A DNA stretch of 22,501 nt from a virus. The stretch's first letter is position 1. Each line of letters opens with the position of its first letter. The notes beneath the pieces are model-generated. The model searched no databases, had not been told where the DNA came from, and saw only the letters and a list, made by a program, of their open reading frames with translations. Positions 3,613 through 16,986 of the stretch are shown piece after piece. A program made the translations under genes and the position numbers. Location of the stretch: positions 1 to 22,501 of IMG/VR virus record IMGVR_UViG_3300027896_003172. One strand, written 5' to 3'.

Positions 3613-3631
3613 AAGGAGGCTTGACCGTGCT
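3613..3631 (+). repeat. direct repeat A1 (ribosome site and start of HNH 1)
   Basis: AAGGAGGCTTGACCGTGCT at 3613-3631 matches 4059-4078 at the start of the gene downstream of HNH 1, with one base inserted and two changed. Both copies carry a ribosome site and a GTG start followed by CT. Confidence 0.6.
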
Positions 3632-4070
3632 TGCTAATGACATTGAACGTTTTTGGTCCAAAGTTGACAAACGCGGTCCGGATGAATGTTGGCTTTGGAA
3701 ACCTATTCCAAACAATGCCGGATATGGAGTATTTAGCTTGCAAGGAACCTCCTATCTAGCACATCGTATTGCATACGAGCTTTGTATCGGTTCTATTCCT
3801 TTCGGAGTCAATGTTTGTCACTCTTGCGATCATTCAAATTGCTGTAATCCAATACATTTATTTCCTGGAACGCAGCAAGACAATGTCGATGATATGATTG
3901 CAAAGGGTCGCACCAGACATCATATCATTCTATCGAATGAGCAAGTACGAGAAGTTCGAGCAATCTATGCAACTGGACAGGTTGCGATCCAGGATTTAAG
4001 TAACTGGTATAACGTTTCCTATGCTACAATCGGAAACATCGTTCGTAATGCTGCCCGAAAGGAGGCATGA
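3627..4070 (+). CDS. free-standing HNH homing-type endonuclease 1, 147 aa
   Basis: GTG 3627 is 7 bases after AAGGAGG (3613-3619). The N-terminal half is an HNH_3-type nuclease: ERFWSKVDKRGPDECW at about residues 8-23, then AHRIAYELCIG, then VCHSCDHSNCCNPIHLF carrying the HNH/zinc Cys and His residues. The C-terminal 45 residues (LSNEQVREVRAIYATGQ, then LSNWYNVSYATIGNIV) are a helix-turn-helix DNA-binding segment. Such proteins cut DNA and spread their own gene. It is intact. It is closely related to genes at 14029 and 15267 and to the remnant at 9953. Its last codons (RKEA) encode AAAGGAGG, the ribosome site of the next gene. Confidence 0.9.
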   Translation: MLANDIERFWSKVDKRGPDECWLWKPIPNNAGYGVFSLQGTSYLAHRIAYELCIGSIPFGVNVCHSCDHSNCCNPIHLFPGTQQDNVDDMIAKGRTRHHIILSNEQVREVRAIYATGQVAIQDLSNWYNVSYATIGNIVRNAARKEA

Positions 4071-4078: not shown

Positions 4079-4379
4079 ACTCACCTTAACGCAAGCCGGT
4101 AAAGATGCCCTTGAAGCCGAGCACGTCGACTTTACGCAGTTGCAAATACGAATCCTTTGCTACTGTTGGGATCCTACCACTCCGCAAGCGCTTCGCGATC
4201 GCATCAACCTGAATCCAATCTACGTTGGTATTACGCCTCGTTACTTTGTTGCTTATCTCGATGCTCTCATACGCAAACACTATTTGGAGGTAACCGATGT
4301 TGAACCTGATAAACCATTCCATGCACCAAATGTCTTCGTCGGAAAGAAAAGTGGTAACCCTGTTGTCAGGCGGTCTTGA
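4074..4379 (+). CDS. possible winged-helix protein, 101 aa, overlapping queC
   Basis: GTG 4074 has AAAGGAGG at 4058-4065. Residues about 1-75 have a winged-helix feel: LTLTQAGKDALEAE, TQLQIRILCYCWDP, PQALRDRINLNP, then YFVAYLDALIRKHYLEVTD, in which the last helix plus strand resembles the recognition helix and wing. This is inference from pattern. The final 27 codons overlap the start of queC by 83 bases in another frame, an unusually long overlap. It may regulate or simply be coupled to queC. Loss of its 3' end would not remove the domain, so the overlap could result from a lost earlier stop or from a longer-than-real queC start. Confidence 0.6.
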   Translation: MLLTLTQAGKDALEAEHVDFTQLQIRILCYCWDPTTPQALRDRINLNPIYVGITPRYFVAYLDALIRKHYLEVTDVEPDKPFHAPNVFVGKKSGNPVVRRS

Positions 4380-4992
4380 TTCTACCGTCCTGGCATATAT
4401 GCTTCATCGCCTCAATTACCTGCAAACGTTCATTAGCTTCAACTATGGTCAGAAGCACTTGCGCGAACTCGATTGCGCAGCTCAAACAGCAGTCGCTCTT
4501 AACTGCGCGCACCATATCATCGATCTTAGCTGCGTAAATGACCTGTGGCAATCTTCAAGCATTGTTGGTCCTCAAGCAGTACCTGAAGGCCACTACGCCG
4601 CTCCGAATATGGCCTCAACCGTTGTACCAAATCGTAACATGCTGTTCATTACCTTCGCGGGCATACTTGCAGTTAACGTCGGCGCGGCCCACGTTTGTTT
4701 AGCAGTACACGCAGGGGATCATCCAATTTACCCTGACTGCAGGCCGGACTTCATCTCGGCAATCACAAGAACACTTCAATTAAGTTGCGGTGTGGCAGTT
4801 GAAGCTCCATTCAGCGGATATACGAAGTCGGATATCGTTCTCTTGGGTGAACAGAATCAAGCGGACTTCGCAAACACGTGGTCGTGTTATAAAGGCGGCG
4901 CGCGTCACTGCGGCCTGTGCGGAACATGTGTTGAACGCAAGGAAGCTTTTTTATTGGCGGGTGTAGACGATCCGACGGTGTACGATGCCTAA
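4297..4992 (+). CDS. queC: 7-cyano-7-deazaguanine (preQ0) synthase QueC
   Basis: QueC converts 7-carboxy-7-deazaguanine to preQ0 using ATP and ammonia. Visible signatures are the PP-loop SGGLDS (residues 24-29), NYGQKH (49-54), VPNRN (110-114) and four zinc-binding cysteines at 197, 205, 208 and 211. Length (231 aa) is normal, with no fused amidotransferase domain, so it is not the type that makes archaeosine-like bases. ATG 4297 follows GGAGGT with good spacing; a later start at 4330 would match typical QueC N-termini but has no ribosome site. It lies 10 kb from queD, queE, folE and dpdA, apparently in a separate unit, though on the same strand. In this phage its product most likely feeds DpdA. 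Confidence 0.95.
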   Translation: MLNLINHSMHQMSSSERKVVTLLSGGLDSTVLAYMLHRLNYLQTFISFNYGQKHLRELDCAAQTAVALNCAHHIIDLSCVNDLWQSSSIVGPQAVPEGHYAAPNMASTVVPNRNMLFITFAGILAVNVGAAHVCLAVHAGDHPIYPDCRPDFISAITRTLQLSCGVAVEAPFSGYTKSDIVLLGEQNQADFANTWSCYKGGARHCGLCGTCVERKEAFLLAGVDDPTVYDA

Positions 4993-8884: not shown

Positions 8885-8970
8885 AGCTCATATGGAAGAT
8901 TCTCTTAGGGCTATTGATCTTTGTATTGGTTATCTTTGATGCATGGTTTATTTGCACTGTATTGTTGTGA
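8881..8970 (+). CDS. single-span membrane micro-protein, 29 aa
   Basis: ATG 8881 overlaps the stop of the RlpA-like gene (ATGA). The product is one hydrophobic helix (MKLIWKILLGLLIFVLVIFD, then AWFICTVLL) with two basic residues at the N-terminus, suggesting N-in orientation. Its TGA ends at the first base of the tRNA-like sequence. It is too short for family recognition. Confidence 0.5.
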   Translation: MKLIWKILLGLLIFVLVIFDAWFICTVLL

Positions 8971-9053
8971 GCGGTGTTCACCCGGCAGGTGTGTGTCCCC
9001 CGGCACAGTCGAGAGCCCAGCACTCGATTCCAGGTTCAACTCCTGGCGCCGCT
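8970..9053 (+). tRNA. tRNA-like sequence, long-variable-arm type, odd anticodon arm
   Basis: AGCGGTG (8970-8976) pairs with CGCCGCT (9047-9053) as a 7-bp acceptor stem. CCAGG/CCTGG (9030-9034, 9042-9046) with loop TTCAACT is a textbook T arm. TCGAG/CTCGA (9009-9013, 9023-9027) could be a long variable arm. The D arm (CACC/GGTG around a 5-base loop) and the anticodon arm (TGTG/CACA around TCCCCCGG, 8996-9003) fit poorly, with no normal 7-base loop and U33. No CCA is encoded. It may be a decayed or unusual tRNA; no anticodon can be assigned with confidence. Confidence 0.45.
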
Positions 9054-9080
9054 CTTGTACTTTAGTTTAAGGAGGTGCGT

Positions 9081-9956
9081 ATGAGAATCACAGTGACCGA
9101 GCGGGGCATCTTCAAACGATGCCGAAGGCAGTGGGATTATAATAGTTTTAACCGGCAAGGGTTAGCTAGGATAATCTCCAAGGGGGCACTTGCAACAGGC
9201 CGGTTAGTGCACCAAGCGCTAGCAAACTGGTTGCTACATCCGGACCAAGACCTCGTAGGCATTTACATGGGTCTTGCGGATGATGAGCTTACGAACGTCA
9301 AAGTTCAGTATCAGAAGCAAGTCGGAGCGGAGATCAGTGACGCGGAGCTAGGCGGAGTTTACGATGCAATTCTAGTCGGCCATACGGTTATGGATAACTA
9401 TCAAAAGTACTATCATAAGCCGCTGCCTGATGGTTATACTTTAGTTGCACCAGAACAACAACTCGCAGCAATCATTCCGGGCACAGAGCACTTTCTCGAA
9501 GGCAAGCTAGACGCTATCATCAAGCACGCAAATGGTCTTTTGTTCGTGCTTGAACATAAAACGTTCAGCATGATGCCTAAAGAAGCCGACTTGCAAATGA
9601 ACGACCAGTTCTTAGCCTATACATGGTTACTTAAGCAATTCGCACAGGGCGCGCGGATAGGCGGACTGGTCTATGATGGTGTTTCAAAGAAAGCTAGCGC
9701 GAAGGGCGGGCTCGCCGATTTATTTTTGAGGCTGACCTTGCTACGCCCACCTGAAGAGCTAGAAGAGTTCGAGCACAACCTTCAGGCGGAAGTGCTTGAC
9801 ATGGCTGATGCGCGGATCTATCCGAATCGGCAGTGGGCAGGTTGTTGGGATTGCGACTACAATGACTTGTGCAGCGCGCAAAGCCGTGGCGAAGATGTTG
9901 AGTATCTTAAGTCGCAGTATTATATGCCAAGGCAGAAAGTAGAAGAGCCTGAATGA
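9081..9956 (+). CDS. Cas4/RecB-like PD-(D/E)XK nuclease with Fe-S cysteines, 291 aa
   Basis: ATG 9081 follows AAGGAGG (9069-9075). The nuclease core has GKLDAI with Asp144 and LEHKT with Glu158 and Lys160, the D...ExK of this superfamily. Four cysteines suit a 4Fe-4S cluster: Cys14 in FKRCRRQW, and Cys255, 258 and 264 in CWDCDYNDLC (CX2CX5C), as in Cas4 and AddB-type nucleases. Such enzymes trim DNA ends in recombination or repair. It leads the recombination group with the Sak4-like ATPase and DUF669 protein. There is no Cas1/Cas2 or CRISPR nearby, so it is a phage recombination nuclease. The stop overlaps the HNH remnant start. Confidence 0.88.
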   Translation: MRITVTERGIFKRCRRQWDYNSFNRQGLARIISKGALATGRLVHQALANWLLHPDQDLVGIYMGLADDELTNVKVQYQKQVGAEISDAELGGVYDAILVGHTVMDNYQKYYHKPLPDGYTLVAPEQQLAAIIPGTEHFLEGKLDAIIKHANGLLFVLEHKTFSMMPKEADLQMNDQFLAYTWLLKQFAQGARIGGLVYDGVSKKASAKGGLADLFLRLTLLRPPEELEEFEHNLQAEVLDMADARIYPNRQWAGCWDCDYNDLCSAQSRGEDVEYLKSQYYMPRQKVEEPE

Positions 9957-10174
9957 GCACTCTAAAGACCGTCGCATTGCGCTTCTGGAGCAAAGTTGAC
10001 AAGAGTGGTTCAAAGGCTCGCTTCGCAAGTAAGTTAACTGTCGAACAAGTGCGAGAGATTCGTTTCCTACTTTCTACTGGAACGCTTCAGAGAATCATTG
10101 CAGAAGAGTATGACGTGTCTCCAACAACAATATCTATGATCGCGCGGGACGCCGCGTGGAAGGGGTTACAATGA
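9953..10174 (+). CDS. HNH endonuclease remnant lacking the nuclease core, 73 aa
   Basis: ATG 9953 overlaps the nuclease gene's stop. The start (LRFWSKVDKSG at about residues 9-19) is the same as in the three full HNH proteins. It then jumps directly to the C-terminal helix-turn-helix (KLTVEQVREIRFLLSTG, then IIAEEYDVSPTTISMI, residues 27-62), ending DAAWKGLQ like the others. The DECW segment and all HNH Cys/His residues are gone, yet the frame is open. It looks like an in-frame deletion of about 75 residues. It may be a decaying relic or a reused small DNA-binding protein. Its last codons (TGGAAGGGG) provide the ribosome site for the next gene. Confidence 0.8.
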   Translation: MSTLKTVALRFWSKVDKSGSKARFASKLTVEQVREIRFLLSTGTLQRIIAEEYDVSPTTISMIARDAAWKGLQ

Positions 10175-11680: not shown

Positions 11681-14027
11681 AACATTCTTACAAACAGTGA
11701 TCACAACACCGGAGGGTTGGTTCTGTTTGGCACATAGTAGTGGAGGACATTGGAGAGAGGAGTGGTATAAATGGCCAGAGCAACTTGAAGATATTATAGC
11801 GTTCGCAGCTTCGCGTTCGGATGAAAATGTTTTCTTTACTACACACCTGTTTTCACAGCCGTGCAGTCAAAAGCGTTATGCGCTCAATAGTTCTACAATA
11901 CAAGCAGACCTTGATGACGCGGATGTGCTATCACTACCGATTGTACCAACAATACTAGTACAGTCCAGTCCGGATAGACATCAGGGTTATTGGGTTTTGA
12001 CTAATGCACCGCCAATCGATACACTTGAAATTCTAAGCCGTAAGCTAACTTATGCAATACCCAAATGCGACCACGGCGGTTGGTCAATCGGACACAAACT
12101 AAGAATACCAGAAACGTACAATCATAAGTACTTAGAAGGGCCGCAACAGGTTATTATCGTTGGCAGTGCTCTTAAGTTACATTCAGTTGAAGAATTTGAA
12201 CTATTGCCAGAGGCACCAAAGGCAGCAATAGTTGAAGCCGATAATACCTGGGTTGACTCGCCACATGAATTCAACGTCGGACCACAAGAGTTATTGGAGT
12301 CTATAAAAGATGGCATACCCTTGCGTGTATACATACAGTACAACGTTCTGGCCAAAGACCGATCAGCTGCACTCTGGGCCCTTATGTGTGCGGCTTTTAG
12401 GGCGAATCTTGACCGTAGTGCGGTGTTCTGGTTGGCGAAACACTCAACAAACAATAAGTTTGCGTCTTTGGCATACAATAGTGATCGCGAGCTTGCTAAA
12501 GACGTACTCCGCGCAGAACAAGTTGTCCGAAATAGAACTCCAGATCTCCGTACGGCAATACTCGAAGCGAGGAGACTGGCGGGAATTAATGCTGAGAAGC
12601 GACAGTATATCCAACAACTTGTAATAGACGCAATGAAGCATACCGGAGAGTTTATTCGAACTTATGAAGACTCTATCTGGTATATCAATCGTGAGCAAGG
12701 CAGGCCTGTTACGATATCGCCTAACAGTGAATACTTACAGATGCTTCTTGACTTGCAGTTTGGTTTGAATGCAACGGAGACTGAGCAGGCATATGTCATC
12801 TCAGGCTTAATGGCGTATACACATTCACTACCGCAAACGGCAACAGTAGCATCGATGAGTTATTATGACCCTGAAACAAACACGCTCTTGCTACATACAG
12901 GTAGAAAGGACGTTCTACGCATTACGACAACAAGCGTAACAAAAGTAACCAATGGAGCATACGGAGTAATCTTTCCGTGGAATAGTGCTGCTGAGCCTTT
13001 CGAGCCACATAGCTCGAGCATCGATTGGGCTGATGAGCTGTTCGACAACTGCTTGAACAACATCATTTCAAGTCCGAAAGCGCAAGCAAAAGCATTACTG
13101 CGGGTTTGGTTTCTCTTTCTATTGTTTAGGAGTGCCGCGGTGTCAAAGCCAATCTTAGCGTTGTTTGGACAACCGGGTGCAGGCAAAAGCACTTTATTCA
13201 GGCGCGTATACGCCCTATTGTATGGAGGTAGGAAATCGCTAGGAGCGGTTACGGTCGCTGAGGACTTCGACCATGCAGTAACCATCGACCCGCTAGTGGT
13301 ATTAGACAACGTCGATAGTTGGGAGCGATGGCTACCGGACCGGCTAGCGCTAGCAGCATCAAGTAGTGATATTACAAAACGAAAGCTATATACAGACCAA
13401 GACACAATCGTTCTCAAACGTCAAGCATTGCTAGGCATAACTGCACACAATCCAAGATTCGGTCGTGAAGACGTTGCTGATAGAATGTTGATTATCATGT
13501 TCGAACGTTTGCCGTATTTCTTGCCAGAAGAAGATATTATCTTAAGTTTGCTAGCGTCAAGAGATCAGTTATGGGGAGCGATAATCAATGACGTACAAAA
13601 AACTCTTAATACACCGATCCCCGCCGCATCTGATTGTCCGCAATTCCGAGTTGCTGATTTCGCAAGAATTGGATATCGAATTGCTAGTGGACTCGGAATT
13701 ACCGAAGACTTCGTGGCCGCTATTGGAAGTGTACATAAAAGTCAGAAAACCTTCTCTCTGGACGAGGATCAGCTTTTGGTTACAGCAATGCAGAATCTAA
13801 TTCGCAAACAGAAGTCTAGCACATTTTTAACGACAAGCGTACTGTGGACCGAATTAGAACTTTGTGCGCCGGACGCGTTAGGCTTTACCCGCATGTATCA
13901 TAATGCGGTGCAGTTAGGCAAGAAGCTTTGGGCGTTGCATAGTAGCTTAAGGGAGGTAATGAGTATCGAGTGGAGTGCATCACCGGACGGTAGTCGATTA
14001 TGGAAACTAGGTATAAAGGAGTCTTAG
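11670..14027 (+). CDS. primase-helicase (PrimPol-like plus P-loop helicase), 785 aa
   Basis: ATG 11670 follows GGAG (11660-11663); a GTG at 11658 would precede it. Residues about 1-180 resemble an archaeo-eukaryotic primase: DLD at 80-82 (metal-binding Asp pair), DRHQGYW with His104, and IGHKLRIPETYNHK from 140. The C-terminal part has Walker A GQPGAGKS (500-507, Lys506) and Walker B VVLDNVD (543-549), followed by a sensor-like IVLKRQALLGITAHN, as in phage/plasmid primase-helicases. It should unwind DNA and lay down primers. It is the largest gene of the window. It is followed by an HNH gene placed between it and the RHH gene at 14465. Confidence 0.88.
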   Translation: MDVRTFLQTVITTPEGWFCLAHSSGGHWREEWYKWPEQLEDIIAFAASRSDENVFFTTHLFSQPCSQKRYALNSSTIQADLDDADVLSLPIVPTILVQSSPDRHQGYWVLTNAPPIDTLEILSRKLTYAIPKCDHGGWSIGHKLRIPETYNHKYLEGPQQVIIVGSALKLHSVEEFELLPEAPKAAIVEADNTWVDSPHEFNVGPQELLESIKDGIPLRVYIQYNVLAKDRSAALWALMCAAFRANLDRSAVFWLAKHSTNNKFASLAYNSDRELAKDVLRAEQVVRNRTPDLRTAILEARRLAGINAEKRQYIQQLVIDAMKHTGEFIRTYEDSIWYINREQGRPVTISPNSEYLQMLLDLQFGLNATETEQAYVISGLMAYTHSLPQTATVASMSYYDPETNTLLLHTGRKDVLRITTTSVTKVTNGAYGVIFPWNSAAEPFEPHSSSIDWADELFDNCLNNIISSPKAQAKALLRVWFLFLLFRSAAVSKPILALFGQPGAGKSTLFRRVYALLYGGRKSLGAVTVAEDFDHAVTIDPLVVLDNVDSWERWLPDRLALAASSSDITKRKLYTDQDTIVLKRQALLGITAHNPRFGREDVADRMLIIMFERLPYFLPEEDIILSLLASRDQLWGAIINDVQKTLNTPIPAASDCPQFRVADFARIGYRIASGLGITEDFVAAIGSVHKSQKTFSLDEDQLLVTAMQNLIRKQKSSTFLTTSVLWTELELCAPDALGFTRMYHNAVQLGKKLWALHSSLREVMSIEWSASPDGSRLWKLGIKES

Positions 14028-14039
14028 AATGGCAGAGGC
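14016..14039 (+). repeat. direct repeat B1 (start of HNH 2)
   Basis: 14016-14039 and 14452-14475 are the same length and match at 21 of 24 positions. Each contains AAGGAG, a codon, the stop TAG, then AATGGCAGAGGC. B1 covers the primase end (KES-stop) and the HNH 2 start (MAEA). Confidence 0.75.
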
Positions 14040-14463
14040 GGCTCTACGGCTTTGGGCAAAAATAGACAAGCGTGGTCCCGACGAATGCTGGCCGTGGCAA
14101 GCTGCAATGAACAAGTACGGCTATGGAATGTTTTGGTTTGAGGGAATGATGCAGCACGCGCATCACGTTGTCTATGTACTTGTAGTTGGACGGGTTCCCG
14201 AAGACAAGGATGTTTGTCATGATTGCAATCATTCTTGGTGTTGCAATCCAGCACATTTGTTTCTTGCTACACATCTTGTTAATATGCAAGATAGAAATGC
14301 TGTTGGAAACTTTGGTCATAGCTGCCTGACTTGGGAGAAAGTTCGAAAGATACGTGAACTTCGCAATGAGGGAGAATCTATGAATAATCTTGCCGCGGCG
14401 TTCAATGTATCTCATTCGGCTATACGTAATATTCTCGACAATACTACTTGGAAGGAGGGATAG
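14029..14463 (+). CDS. free-standing HNH homing-type endonuclease 2, 144 aa
   Basis: ATG 14029 is two bases after the primase TAG, with AAGGAG at 14016-14021. The nuclease part shows RLWAKIDKRGPDECWPW (about residues 7-23), AHHVVYVLVVG and VCHDCNHSWCCNPAHLF with the expected Cys and His residues. The C-terminal helix-turn-helix reads LTWEKVRKIRELRNEGE, then LAAAFNVSHSAIRNIL. It is intact. The first four residues, MAEA, equal those of the next gene, and the HNH end (WKEG-stop) encodes AAGGAGG for it. It lacks introns or flanking exon signs, so it is a free-standing mobile gene rather than an intron endonuclease. Confidence 0.9.
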   Translation: MAEAALRLWAKIDKRGPDECWPWQAAMNKYGYGMFWFEGMMQHAHHVVYVLVVGRVPEDKDVCHDCNHSWCCNPAHLFLATHLVNMQDRNAVGNFGHSCLTWEKVRKIRELRNEGESMNNLAAAFNVSHSAIRNILDNTTWKEG

Positions 14464-14475
14464 AATGGCAGAGGC
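14452..14475 (+). repeat. direct repeat B2 (end of HNH 2 / start of RHH gene)
   Basis: Second copy of the 14016-14039 repeat. It covers the HNH 2 end (KEG-stop) and the start of the RHH gene at 14465 (MAEA). Confidence 0.75.
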
Positions 14476-14665
14476 AAAAAGCAGGCAGTTTATGATAAAC
14501 ATTGAGCCTACTCTATATGACCTACTGCAGAGTGTCTTAAATGATGAGAACGTCTCTGCAAGTGGGTTCATGCGAGGCTTGCTAATCAAAGCATTATATG
14601 ATCGCAAGCTGTTGAACGAAGAACATATGTTGACAATGCTAGGAGTACAAAATGCTAGCCACTAA
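14465..14665 (+). CDS. small ribbon-helix-helix-like protein, 66 aa
   Basis: ATG 14465 follows AAGGAGGG at 14452-14459; an upstream in-frame start at 14390 would lie within HNH 2. The strand SRQFMINIE (about residues 6-14), helix LYDLLQSVLNDE and second helix ASGFMRGLLIKALYD fit a ribbon-helix-helix DNA-binding fold. It sits directly ahead of queD, whose start it overlaps by 14 bases, so it might regulate the deazaguanine genes or simply be co-expressed. It is not clearly a close relative of the RHH protein at 3264. Confidence 0.7.
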   Translation: MAEAKSRQFMINIEPTLYDLLQSVLNDENVSASGFMRGLLIKALYDRKLLNEEHMLTMLGVQNASH

Positions 14666-15032
14666 AATGCGAATGTCAGTTACGAAGCAGTTCAGATTCG
14701 AAGCGGCTCATCACCTTCCAGGTTACGATGGGCCCTGTGCGGAACTTCACGGCCATTCGTACTTGCTTGAGGTTACTGTAACCTCAGACTCATTTAAGGA
14801 CGATATGGTGATGGACTTTGTAGCGCTGAAGAAACTTGTACAACCGTTTATCGAACAGCTTGATCATCACTATCTAAACGATCTCATGGAGCGGCCTACT
14901 GCCGAGGCCTTATTGTACTGGCTAGGCACTGAGCTACGAGTATTAGATAAACGTGTTTGGAAGTTGAAGCTGTGGGAAACAGCTACTAGCTACGCCGAAA
15001 TCGAATTCGGCAATCTAGAGCCGCTAAGATGA
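14652..15032 (+). CDS. queD: 6-carboxytetrahydropterin synthase QueD
   Basis: QueD turns dihydroneopterin triphosphate into 6-carboxy-tetrahydropterin, the second step of deazaguanine synthesis. Visible: FEAAHHLPG with zinc ligand His20, CAELHGHSY with catalytic Cys29 and zinc ligands His33 and His35, LDHHYLN with Asp71-His72, PTAEAL and the substrate-binding Glu109 in LWETATSY. At 126 aa it has family length with a short N-terminal extension. ATG 14652 follows AGGAG (14641-14645). It comes first in the queD-queE-folE-dpdA group, split only by an unknown gene and HNH 3. Confidence 0.96.
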   Translation: MLATKMRMSVTKQFRFEAAHHLPGYDGPCAELHGHSYLLEVTVTSDSFKDDMVMDFVALKKLVQPFIEQLDHHYLNDLMERPTAEALLYWLGTELRVLDKRVWKLKLWETATSYAEIEFGNLEPLR

Positions 15033-15289
15033 AAGTTTATGTTATGATTCCGAAGGCTAACATCATGCCGAAAGCTCCACTACCGCCGCCAAGAACCTTT
15101 AGTTCTATGCAAGCCGCGATTGATGCGGCTATAGCAATGCTTGGCTATAAGGATACTGTTTGTACGTCCCAGATTGAAACCGAGGCGGATGTTTGGGCAG
15201 GATGTGCTCATCCGCACTTCTTTTCGGCTCCTGAGATTAAGATAACTGCTGTTGAATTGGAGGAACATGGCGACGTTGAAAGTTGCTAA
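15029..15289 (+). CDS. hypothetical protein, 86 aa
   Basis: ATG 15029 overlaps the queD stop (ATGA), so it is coupled to it. It starts MKVYVMIPKANIMPKAPLPP and continues with an alpha/beta pattern (FSSMQAAIDAAIAMLG, later EIKITAVELEEHGD). No known motif is visible. Its last nine codons overlap the HNH 3 start in another frame. Joining this region directly to queE would give the same length with a TGA stop, so it probably overlapped queE before HNH 3 arrived. Membership of the queD-queE operon hints at a link to base modification, but the family is not recognised. Confidence 0.65.
   Translation: MKVYVMIPKANIMPKAPLPPPRTFSSMQAAIDAAIAMLGYKDTVCTSQIETEADVWAGCAHPHFFSAPEIKITAVELEEHGDVESC
15258..15284 (+). 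repeat. direct repeat C1 (start of HNH 3)
   Basis: TGGAGGAA (15258-15265) and ATGGCGACGTTGAAAGTT (15267-15284) repeat at 15741-15770, with only two changes in the 18 coding bases and a spacer of one base here versus four there. Confidence 0.8.
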
Positions 15290-15752
15290 TCAATACGCTC
15301 GAGATATTATTCGCTTCTGGAGCCGTGTTGATAAGCGAAGTCCTGATGAATGCTGGCTATGGAAAGAGCGATTAGAATCTAATGGCTATGCACACTTTAC
15401 TATTCGCCACGTTCACAATCTTGTACATCGATTCGCTTTCGAATTAGTGATCGGCGAGATTCCTGAAGGCATGGAAGTGTGTCATACTTGCGATATTCGT
15501 TCTTGTTGCAATCCTGCTCACTTGTTTCTTGGAACGCAATTGGATAACATGGTTGACATGGTTGCAAAGAGACGTTCAGATCATGCTTGCGGTGAAGAAC
15601 ATAATCAGCACAAGTTATCTTGGACGCAAGTCGACGAGATTCGAAAGTTGTATTCGACGGGTAGAGTTTCTTTAAGTATGCTAAGTCAACAATACAATCT
15701 ATCCGTCGCCGCACTAAGTCATGTTGTTCGCAATGAAACGTGGAGGAAGTAA
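15267..15752 (+). CDS. free-standing HNH homing-type endonuclease 3, 161 aa
   Basis: ATG 15267 lies just after GGAGG (15259-15263); a TTG start at 15252 is less likely. The first six residues, MATLKV, equal those of queE. Then come IRFWSRVDKRSPDECWLW, VHRFAFELVIG and VCHTCDIRSCCNPAHLF with the HNH/zinc residues, ending with the helix-turn-helix (LSWTQVDEIRKLYSTG, then LSQQYNLSVAALSHVV). It is intact. It closes with ETWRK-stop, whose codons TGGAGGAAG serve as the queE ribosome site. The N-terminal part before RFW is therefore borrowed from the target gene, while RFW onward is shared with the other HNH genes. Confidence 0.9.
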   Translation: MATLKVANQYARDIIRFWSRVDKRSPDECWLWKERLESNGYAHFTIRHVHNLVHRFAFELVIGEIPEGMEVCHTCDIRSCCNPAHLFLGTQLDNMVDMVAKRRSDHACGEEHNQHKLSWTQVDEIRKLYSTGRVSLSMLSQQYNLSVAALSHVVRNETWRK

Positions 15753-15770
15753 ATGGCGACGTTGAAGGTC
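15741..15770 (+). repeat. direct repeat C2 (end of HNH 3 / start of queE)
   Basis: Second copy of the 15258-15284 repeat: TGGAGGAA (15741-15748), four spacer bases, then ATGGCGACGTTGAAGGTC (15753-15770) at the start of queE. Confidence 0.8.
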
Positions 15771-16391
15771 AGTGAAATTTTTGGACCCACCTTCCAAGGC
15801 GAGGGCAATACAACCGGACAGTATTGCAGCTTCTTGCGGTTGAGCGGTTGTAACTTAAAGTGCAGCTGGTGTGATACAAAATACGCTGCACAGGGCGAGT
15901 TCATTGAGATACGTGAGGTGCTCGATCGATTATTTGCGATGTTACCGCGGCGGGTGGTTATAAGTGGTGGCGAGCCGTTACTTCAACAAGGCTACCTGCA
16001 ACCAGTAGTAGATGGCCTTCGCGAGGCAGGCATACTCGTAGACATTGAAACAAACGGTACAATCATACCTACTCTGAAGAAAGTATGTCAGTACAATGTC
16101 TCGCCGAAGTTACGTAACGCCTGTAAGAACGGGATCTATCAAGGCGTACTTACGTGGTTCGCGACACAAACGAACTGCATCTTCAAGTTTGTTTGTGCTA
16201 ATGATTCAGATGTTCGTGAAGTAGGCGGTCTAGGTTTAGAAGCGTCAAAAGTCTGGATAATGCCAGAAGGCATGACTACTGCAGCGCTTGATGCCTCCTT
16301 AAAGGCAATCATACCAACGACGCTCGAGTACGGATATAACCTGACGGATCGATTGCACATCCGGTTATGGGGGTGCAAACGTGGAGTCTAA
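15753..16391 (+). CDS. queE: 7-carboxy-7-deazaguanine synthase QueE (radical SAM)
   Basis: QueE rearranges 6-carboxy-tetrahydropterin to 7-carboxy-7-deazaguanine using S-adenosylmethionine and a 4Fe-4S cluster. Visible: SEIFGPTFQGEG (residues 7-18), the cluster motif CNLKCSWC with Cys33, 37 and 40 (CX3CX2C), GGEP at 72-75 and ETNGT around 96. The 212 aa length is normal. ATG 15753 uses the ribosome site encoded by the end of HNH 3. The stop overlaps the folE start by 11 bases. With QueD, QueC and FolE it completes the preQ0 pathway. Confidence 0.96.
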   Translation: MATLKVSEIFGPTFQGEGNTTGQYCSFLRLSGCNLKCSWCDTKYAAQGEFIEIREVLDRLFAMLPRRVVISGGEPLLQQGYLQPVVDGLREAGILVDIETNGTIIPTLKKVCQYNVSPKLRNACKNGIYQGVLTWFATQTNCIFKFVCANDSDVREVGGLGLEASKVWIMPEGMTTAALDASLKAIIPTTLEYGYNLTDRLHIRLWGCKRGV

Positions 16392-16986
16392 AACACCTAC
16401 ACCGGGAGAAGTAATTGAAGCTATCATTGCGAGAGGAGAGAAAGTGGATACGGATAAAGAAGTCATTGGTCTGCACGAAGTCCTTTTAAGTGTATTTGGT
16501 GAGCATGGTTGGGACGACTCTGCTCTTGATACTGCAAGGCGAGTCGTTCGATACTGGCATGAGTTTCATCAACATGAAAGCACTTTTGTTTTCACATGCT
16601 TTCCAACCGTTGTAAACCAGCTGATTGTTGTCAAAGACATTGAGTTCAGTAGCCTGTGCAGTCATCACCTGTTGCCATTCTATGGCGTAGCACACGTAGG
16701 CTATATACCAAATAAGTTGATGGTTGGTCTTTCAAAAATACCGCGGCTAGTCGATTGGTGTGCACATCATCCGAACACCCAAGAAGCTCTCACTGCCTCG
16801 ATAGCATCGTTTATGAAGGATAAGCTTGCAGCAATGGGAGTAGCAGTAGTTATTAACAGTCGACACACGTGTATGGCATGCCGCGGGGCTAAAGCATTTA
16901 ATGCTTCAATGATCACGTCTGAGATGCGCGGCGTCTTCTTAACCTCCGGCGAAGCGCGGAGTGAGTTTCTGGAGCTGATAAAATGA
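16381..16986 (+). CDS. folE: GTP cyclohydrolase I FolE
   Basis: FolE converts GTP to dihydroneopterin triphosphate, the entry step for preQ0 (and folate). Motifs: FSSLCSHHLLPFYG with zinc ligands Cys93 and His96, VGYIPN at 107-111 and RHTCMACRG with the third ligand Cys164. The length (201 aa) and the zinc motif are of the bacterial type I enzyme. GTG 16381 is used, within the end of queE. The next gene, dpdA, starts in its stop (ATGA). No other folate genes are present, which supports a role in deazaguanine supply. Confidence 0.95.
   Translation: MESKTPTPGEVIEAIIARGEKVDTDKEVIGLHEVLLSVFGEHGWDDSALDTARRVVRYWHEFHQHESTFVFTCFPTVVNQLIVVKDIEFSSLCSHHLLPFYGVAHVGYIPNKLMVGLSKIPRLVDWCAHHPNTQEALTASIASFMKDKLAAMGVAVVINSRHTCMACRGAKAFNASMITSEMRGVFLTSGEARSEFLELIK

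Follow-up and report, generated by a model that had tools for sequence, protein, structure and literature searches.

A free-standing putative HNH endonuclease gene (HNH3) and the gene that directly follows it, queE, open with the same codons in the virus record IMGVR_UViG_3300027896_003172, which we analysed as its complete 22,501 bases (hereafter the window). What gave an endonuclease gene and its downstream neighbour a common start? We consider it fairly probable that HNH3 (and HNH2, probably also HNH1) is an HNH gene of the free-standing homing type, inserted at the start of its target, such that the native start of the target became the start of the HNH gene and the element brought a replacement.

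The window encodes queC, queD, queE and folE, together with three intact HNH_3-type genes and one remnant without the nuclease domain (Table 1). The co-occurrence of queC, queD, queE and folE suggests 7-deazaguanine modification of phage DNA, as judged from gene content. NCBIfam QueE models match queE at E 5e-26, but under their curated cut-offs. Two of the intact HNH genes are located within or beside this gene group, and every HNH gene of the window either directly precedes the following same-strand gene or overlaps its start. A degenerate tRNA-like match at 8969-9055, with an incomplete anticodon, is probably spurious.

Table 1. Positions of the HNH genes, their repeats and neighbouring genes in the window
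Feature	Position	Strand	Basis
HNH1, third intact HNH gene, GTG start	3627..4070	+	HNH_3 match; weak flanking repeat
queC	4297-4992		
HNH remnant, nuclease domain deleted, HTH retained	9953..10174	+	family matches, alignment
Repeat copy 1, HNH2 start, AAGGAGTCTTAGAATGGCAGAGGC	14016..14039	+	direct-repeat search
HNH2, second intact HNH gene, HNH3-like arrangement	14029..14463	+	HNH_3 match; start ATGGCAGAGGCG copies downstream start ATGGCAGAGGCA
Repeat copy 2, HNH2 end and gene 14465 start, AAGGAGGGATAGAATGGCAGAGGC	14452..14475	+	direct-repeat search
HNH2 target gene, 66 aa, begins MAEA, without family match	14465..14665	+	ORF and family searches
queD	14652-15032		
Upstream ORF, 86 aa, without family match, end inside copy 1	15029..15289	+	ORF and family search
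TGGAGGAA, ribosome-site-like, before HNH3, within upstream ORF	15258..15265	+	sequence
HNH3, free-standing putative HNH endonuclease gene, 161 aa, nuclease domain and C-terminal HTH	15267..15752	+	Pfam HNH_3, E 2e-14; PHROG endonuclease families
Copy 1 of target start, ATGGCGACGTTGAAAGTT, equal to HNH3 N-terminus MATLKV	15267..15284	+	sequence
Second TGGAGGAA, before queE	15741-15748	+	sequence
HNH3 last codons W-R-K and stop (TGG AGG AAG TAA), also queE ribosome site	15741..15752	+	sequence; W159 conservation; SD excess
Copy 2, ATGGCGACGTTGAAGGTC, equal to first six queE codons	15753..15770	+	sequence
queE, HNH3 target gene (7-carboxy-7-deazaguanine synthase)	15753..16391	+	Radical_SAM match; NCBIfam QueE models
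folE	16381-16986		

Counted from the start codon, HNH3 and queE are identical at 16 of 18 bases, with the first 14 all matching, and this repeat lies where a sequence-only reading of the same DNA had placed it, letter for letter. The 14-mer has no other occurrence in the record when up to two mismatches are allowed. Copy 1 is located outside the conserved core of the HNH family, which starts at R16-F17-W18. The upstream ORF terminates in copy 1 (...EEHGDVESC*); fusing copy 1 to queE leaves it at 86 aa (...EEHGDVEGQ*), in agreement with the earlier statement that this gene keeps its length if the queE start replaces copy 1. Prior to the insertion of HNH3, the upstream ORF probably overlapped queE, if the joined sequence is a guide.

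HNH2, which the sequence-only reading had passed over, is the stronger case. An exact 15-base repeat (TAGAATGGCAGAGGC) is found at its start and again at its stop and the start of gene 14465, and 21 of 24 bases are repeated at the two ends when the ribosome site is counted in. HNH1 has a weaker repeat (AAGGAGGCTTGA at 3613-3624 and AAGGAGGCATGA at 4059-4070, 11/12 bases), with GTGCT at both starts. These flanking repeats are the only direct repeats detected in the HNH2 and HNH1 regions, and they are placed exactly at the gene ends. No start copy is recognisable between the remnant and its downstream gene.

The sequence-only reading had described a duplication of the ribosome site as well as of the start codons, and only the latter part holds: the start codons recur in the same manner at HNH2 and in other phages (see below), whereas the downstream TGGAGGAA is simply the last three codons of HNH3, W-R-K. 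Because W159 is at least 90% conserved among 43 HNH family members, this part of the repeat needs no duplication to account for it, and the case for copying consequently rests on the start codons. Shine–Dalgarno (SD) cores occur in the last 21 nt of HNH genes at a density of 0.32 versus 0.16 expected, an about two-fold excess. The ribosome site before queE is thus best read as HNH coding sequence doing double duty, and a common function may be all that makes it resemble the site upstream of HNH3.

To place the window in context, related HNH genes were gathered from viral and prokaryote contigs, and tight pairs were defined as those in which the downstream gene starts -9 to +14 bases from the HNH stop (n=141 in the main set). 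An ungapped DNA repeat search of 84 HNH loci showed little beyond the window, the cases of which were the only clear ones; start-anchored and peptide-level scores were then adopted, with start-peptide similarity measured by prefix scoring, as global peptide alignment missed short matches. Five of the 141 tight pairs reached a start-peptide score of at least 18 versus 0.48 expected from cross pairs: loci L235 (VRFHVPALP in the HNH protein, VRFHIPSLP in the target), L106 (MRASKGS/MRAAKGS) and L050 (MAVDL/MAVDL), HNH3 of the window, and L138, the match of which may be due to chance. HNH2 is conspicuous at the DNA level in this survey, and L115 is similar with a gap of one codon (MTALVAIDR/MTVLAMDR). 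A separate set of 36 previously unused pairs yielded one case (L370, VIAGYTQR/VIAGYHQR), at a score that no control pair attained.

Altogether, and counting those of the window, roughly 7 of 177 tight pairs have recognisable start copying, with mostly synonymous base changes; by this count, it is real yet uncommon. Most of the HNH genes collected have no copy of target codons past the start codon, suggesting that codon copying is not obligatory or decays fast. Most HNH bodies that are at least 60% alike at different sites had one common target. In six cases, the copies differ at 18 synonymous versus 4 non-synonymous codons—a contrast inflated by the selection of these cases for peptide similarity—and a synonymous excess is as expected if the copies were two alleles of the target start (resident and incoming) rather than a freely drifting duplicate, a useless HNH leader being expected to have the reverse pattern.

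The route of insertion can be followed in named phages that have occupied and empty versions of the same site. In Escherichia phage HC13, genes 2.5 and 3 are separated by an HNH gene that HC12 lacks, and the two phages are identical at 455 of 455 bases through ATGGC at the start of gene 3. At the empty Kayfunavirus sites of HC12 and K1F, the stop of gene 2.5 and the start of gene 3 share bases (TTCTAATGG). The HNH gene of HC13 occupies this original gene 3 start; gene 3 is now found behind a ribosome site in the C-terminal codons of the HNH gene and is foreign over its first ~200 nt (identities to K1F in 50-base steps are 58, 78, 60 and 80, then 92-100%). At the ligase gene of Klebsiella phages Patroon/ViciousJeremy, the upstream DNA is native up to TAACAGGAGAA and the first ~150 nt of ligase are foreign. 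In Patroon (L314), TAACAGGAGA is located before the HNH start (1465-1510) and again in the HNH C-terminal codons before ligase (1885-1915). The first of these follows a promoter-like sequence in Patroon, which no longer has the 79-base ligase leader native to the empty phage.

Members of this HNH family are therefore present in one phage and absent at the same site from a close relative, both ahead of gene 3 and ahead of the ligase gene, and they are accompanied by co-conversion of flanking DNA, the first 150-200 nt of the target being foreign. We read these pairs as homing with one-sided co-conversion, in which the upstream crossover would be at the ribosome site or start of the target and the downstream crossover inside the target. 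In T7 2.8, TM1 and pO91, the HNH codons past the start are unrelated to those of the target; codon copying therefore depends on the position of the upstream crossover and on later drift. For the window itself, blastn found no match in phages, searches of viral contigs with the polymerase and primase-helicase found no relatives, and the best match there to queE was at 41%; no relative of this virus with an empty HNH3 site was found in phages or viral contigs.

HNH1, HNH2 and HNH3 all exceed the curated cut-off of HNH_3 (PF13392, 24.8 bits). In the HNH family alignment, H73, C75, C80, H85 and N94 are invariant and H54 and N82 are at least 90% conserved, and the conserved H, N and H and the zinc-site cysteines of HNH_3 are present in the family. 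The predicted structure of HNH3 is confident (pLDDT 94). Residues 2-19 form one helix in this model, and since the first ten residues are less certain, a variable N-terminal leader is plausible. The nuclease part aligns with I-HmuI (PDB 1u3e) and I-PpoI (VIA Z about 6.7 each); these two enzymes are intron-encoded, whereas the C-terminal HTH of HNH3 matches recombinase/transposase HTHs instead and resembles that of Hin recombinase. A sequence search of the PDB with the HNH protein returned nothing. A group I intron-encoded HNH gene was rejected as a candidate, as Rfam intron models matched nothing in 13500-16500 at E up to 0.5 and the ORF leaves no space beside it for intron RNA. Transposons with target-site duplication were likewise rejected as a class: no transposase was found (family searches gave HNH matches only), and the ends of HNH1, HNH2 and the remnant are without inverted repeats.

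Could the shared starts be accidental, with codon preference in start regions or a common ribosome-site context mimicking copying? SD cores are common by function, MA- starts are frequent, and one unrelated pair of genes in the window (1671 and 9953) has 12 of 14 bases alike after the start codon. Yet, when the 561 gene-start pairs of the window are ranked, HNH2/14465 and HNH3/queE come out first and second, and both are pairs of HNH gene and target neighbour; random ATG/GTG pairs of the window equal the HNH3 score at a frequency of 2.5e-5, and a score of 14 was not reached by a single one of 20,000 cross-locus HNH/target pairs. Same-genome codon preference, which the sequence-only reading had itself named among the outcomes that would undo it, is thus no explanation, and with the excess in the collection and the separate set we regard coincidence as very improbable. 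Nor do we give much credence to copying in reverse, in which the HNH gene would have brought its own start and overwritten that of the target. The QueE leader preceding VSEIFG is variable among relatives, as such overwriting would allow, and HNH4 opens with MSTLKTVA, similar to MATLKVA of HNH3. Against this, HNH N-termini ahead of the RFW motif are not conserved among HNH genes, and the target of L235 is a glycosyltransferase, homologues of which in unrelated cyanophages begin with MRFHILGLPH. Because these homologues carry the peptide, the HNH gene of L235 obtained it second-hand: this conserved N-terminus is native to the target family, and the copying went from target to HNH gene. This check of direction is limited to L235, as L106 target homologues were not found in phages; searches for other HNH genes on the L235, L106 and L050 contigs gave nothing recognisable.

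A simple target-site duplication, in which fill-in of a staggered break at the target start, as by a transposon, gave identical copies that have slightly diverged since, deserves more attention, and we rate it as unlikely. The near-identity of the window copies (14 and 15 exact bases) is what it predicts, and precise loss between copies would restore both neighbours. Its difficulties are the length of the repeat, which is not fixed (about 15 exact bases at HNH2, 14 at HNH3 and 5 at the HNH1 start codon), the lack of a transposase and of terminal inverted repeats noted above, and a sole inverted repeat near HNH3 that has one arm within the gene. Moreover, the target side in the named phages is foreign, not a copy of the resident sequence, and copies elsewhere differ mainly at synonymous sites.

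Insertion at the target start, the reading that we prefer, would have proceeded from an ancestral state in which a single queE start (ATGGCGACGTTGAA) overlapped the 15029 ORF at its end. The HNH3 junctions would stem from recombination after cleavage of the target close to its start. The resident queE start and first codons, in place behind the upstream ORF, would have become the start and N-terminus of HNH3, and the incoming DNA would have brought the HNH3 body, the ribosome-site codons W-(K/R) and a second start for queE; the copy now adjoining queE would accordingly be the one that arrived with the element. The HNH body appears to begin right past the copied codons: those of HNH1 and HNH3 both open with GCT AAT immediately thereafter, and the family core runs from RFW. 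All three genes—upstream ORF, HNH3 and queE—would be translated. At the level of sequence, direct support is at hand for the copies, their excess over chance, the pattern in other phages, the target-to-HNH direction at L235 and the route in two occupied/empty pairs. Against the model stand the unrelated HNH codons past the start in T7 2.8, TM1, pO91 and most of the collection, the failure of our searches to turn up an empty site in a relative of this virus, and the resemblance of the HNH4 and HNH3 N-termini, since HNH genes could have part of their N-terminal likeness by descent. More tentatively, and with doubt prevailing, start-site capture may be the regular mode of invasion of this HNH family: a mobile unit without its own start codon would recombine in at the target start, use the native start, and carry a ribosome site in its conserved C-terminal codons and a replacement start, most copies having drifted past recognition.

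The sequence-only reading knew of no such behaviour of HNH genes. In the literature searched, coverage of which is incomplete, we likewise found no report of an HNH gene that carries the start of its target, but the mirror image is known from fungal mitochondria. There, mORFs (in Allomyces and Glomus; atp6, atp9, cox2 and nad3) carry the C-terminus of the invaded gene, and a divergent native remnant stays (PMC3630166). As at HNH3, an endonuclease ORF is inserted with a copy of one end of the target, the target remains whole, and native and carried copies differ. mORFs, however, bring along the C-terminus and leave the native end as a remnant, whereas at HNH3, in a phage, the duplicated end is the start, and the HNH nuclease gene probably begins with the native copy. 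A duplicated target end flanking an endonuclease ORF is hence present in the window at the 5' end, and the carried C-terminus typical of mORFs is not; the arrangement would be a mirror image of mORFs and not a member of that group. The arrangement would extend to gene 5' ends, and to phages, a principle known until now from the 3' ends of fungal mitochondrial genes.

Phage systems offer further comparisons. According to the sections of PMC2988022 consulted, free-standing HNH and GIY-YIG endonuclease genes of T-even phages (mob, seg) sit between genes, and their homing carries flanking DNA; several of those in T4 start inside or overlapping the upstream gene, and the start of mobE shares bases with the stop of nrdA (UAAUGA), which suggests that their translation is coupled (PMC2988022). 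A copy of the downstream target's start codons, present at HNH3, is not described for mob and seg genes in those sections. T7 2.8 and the Kayfunavirus/Teetrevirus HNH genes before gene 3 or ligase share the HNH type, the position at the target start and the foreign 5' part of the target with HNH3, but have little or no copying of target codons past the ATG (at most MAT/MAT in HC13). In phage ShiLan, an HNH gene is inserted out of frame and unspliced, and the host gene is still readable (PMC11855218); that gene lies inside a methylase gene in another frame, without a start copy, unlike HNH3 at the start of its target (PMC11855218).

Our findings suggest a way for free-standing homing genes to enter packed phage operons with the target gene surviving: the invader takes over the target's own start, and the target receives a new one. 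The sequence signature (repeated start codons plus ribosome-site C-terminal codons) could reveal recent insertions and name the targets of anonymous HNH genes.

Two further observations concern other ends and other fates of such genes. On contig L100, a phage glycosyltransferase gene (614-2002) ending in ...HTWRHTAERLMEAIRERMG is followed by an HNH gene, and TTAEKLMAEIQSRLGQT, directly past the HNH stop (2424-2477), looks like the displaced old glycosyltransferase end; from its sequence, this would be an mORF-type C-terminal duplication in a phage. In the window, the N-terminus and HTH of the remnant are still in frame, and the remnant may survive as a small DNA-binding protein. Its start (ATGAGCACTCTAAAGAC, 9953-9969) resembles that of the unrelated gene 1671 (ATGAGCACCCTACAGAC, 1671-1687), which is preceded by TGGAAGGGG, similar to the remnant's own 3' end; this likeness is possibly the trace of a former location, or chance.
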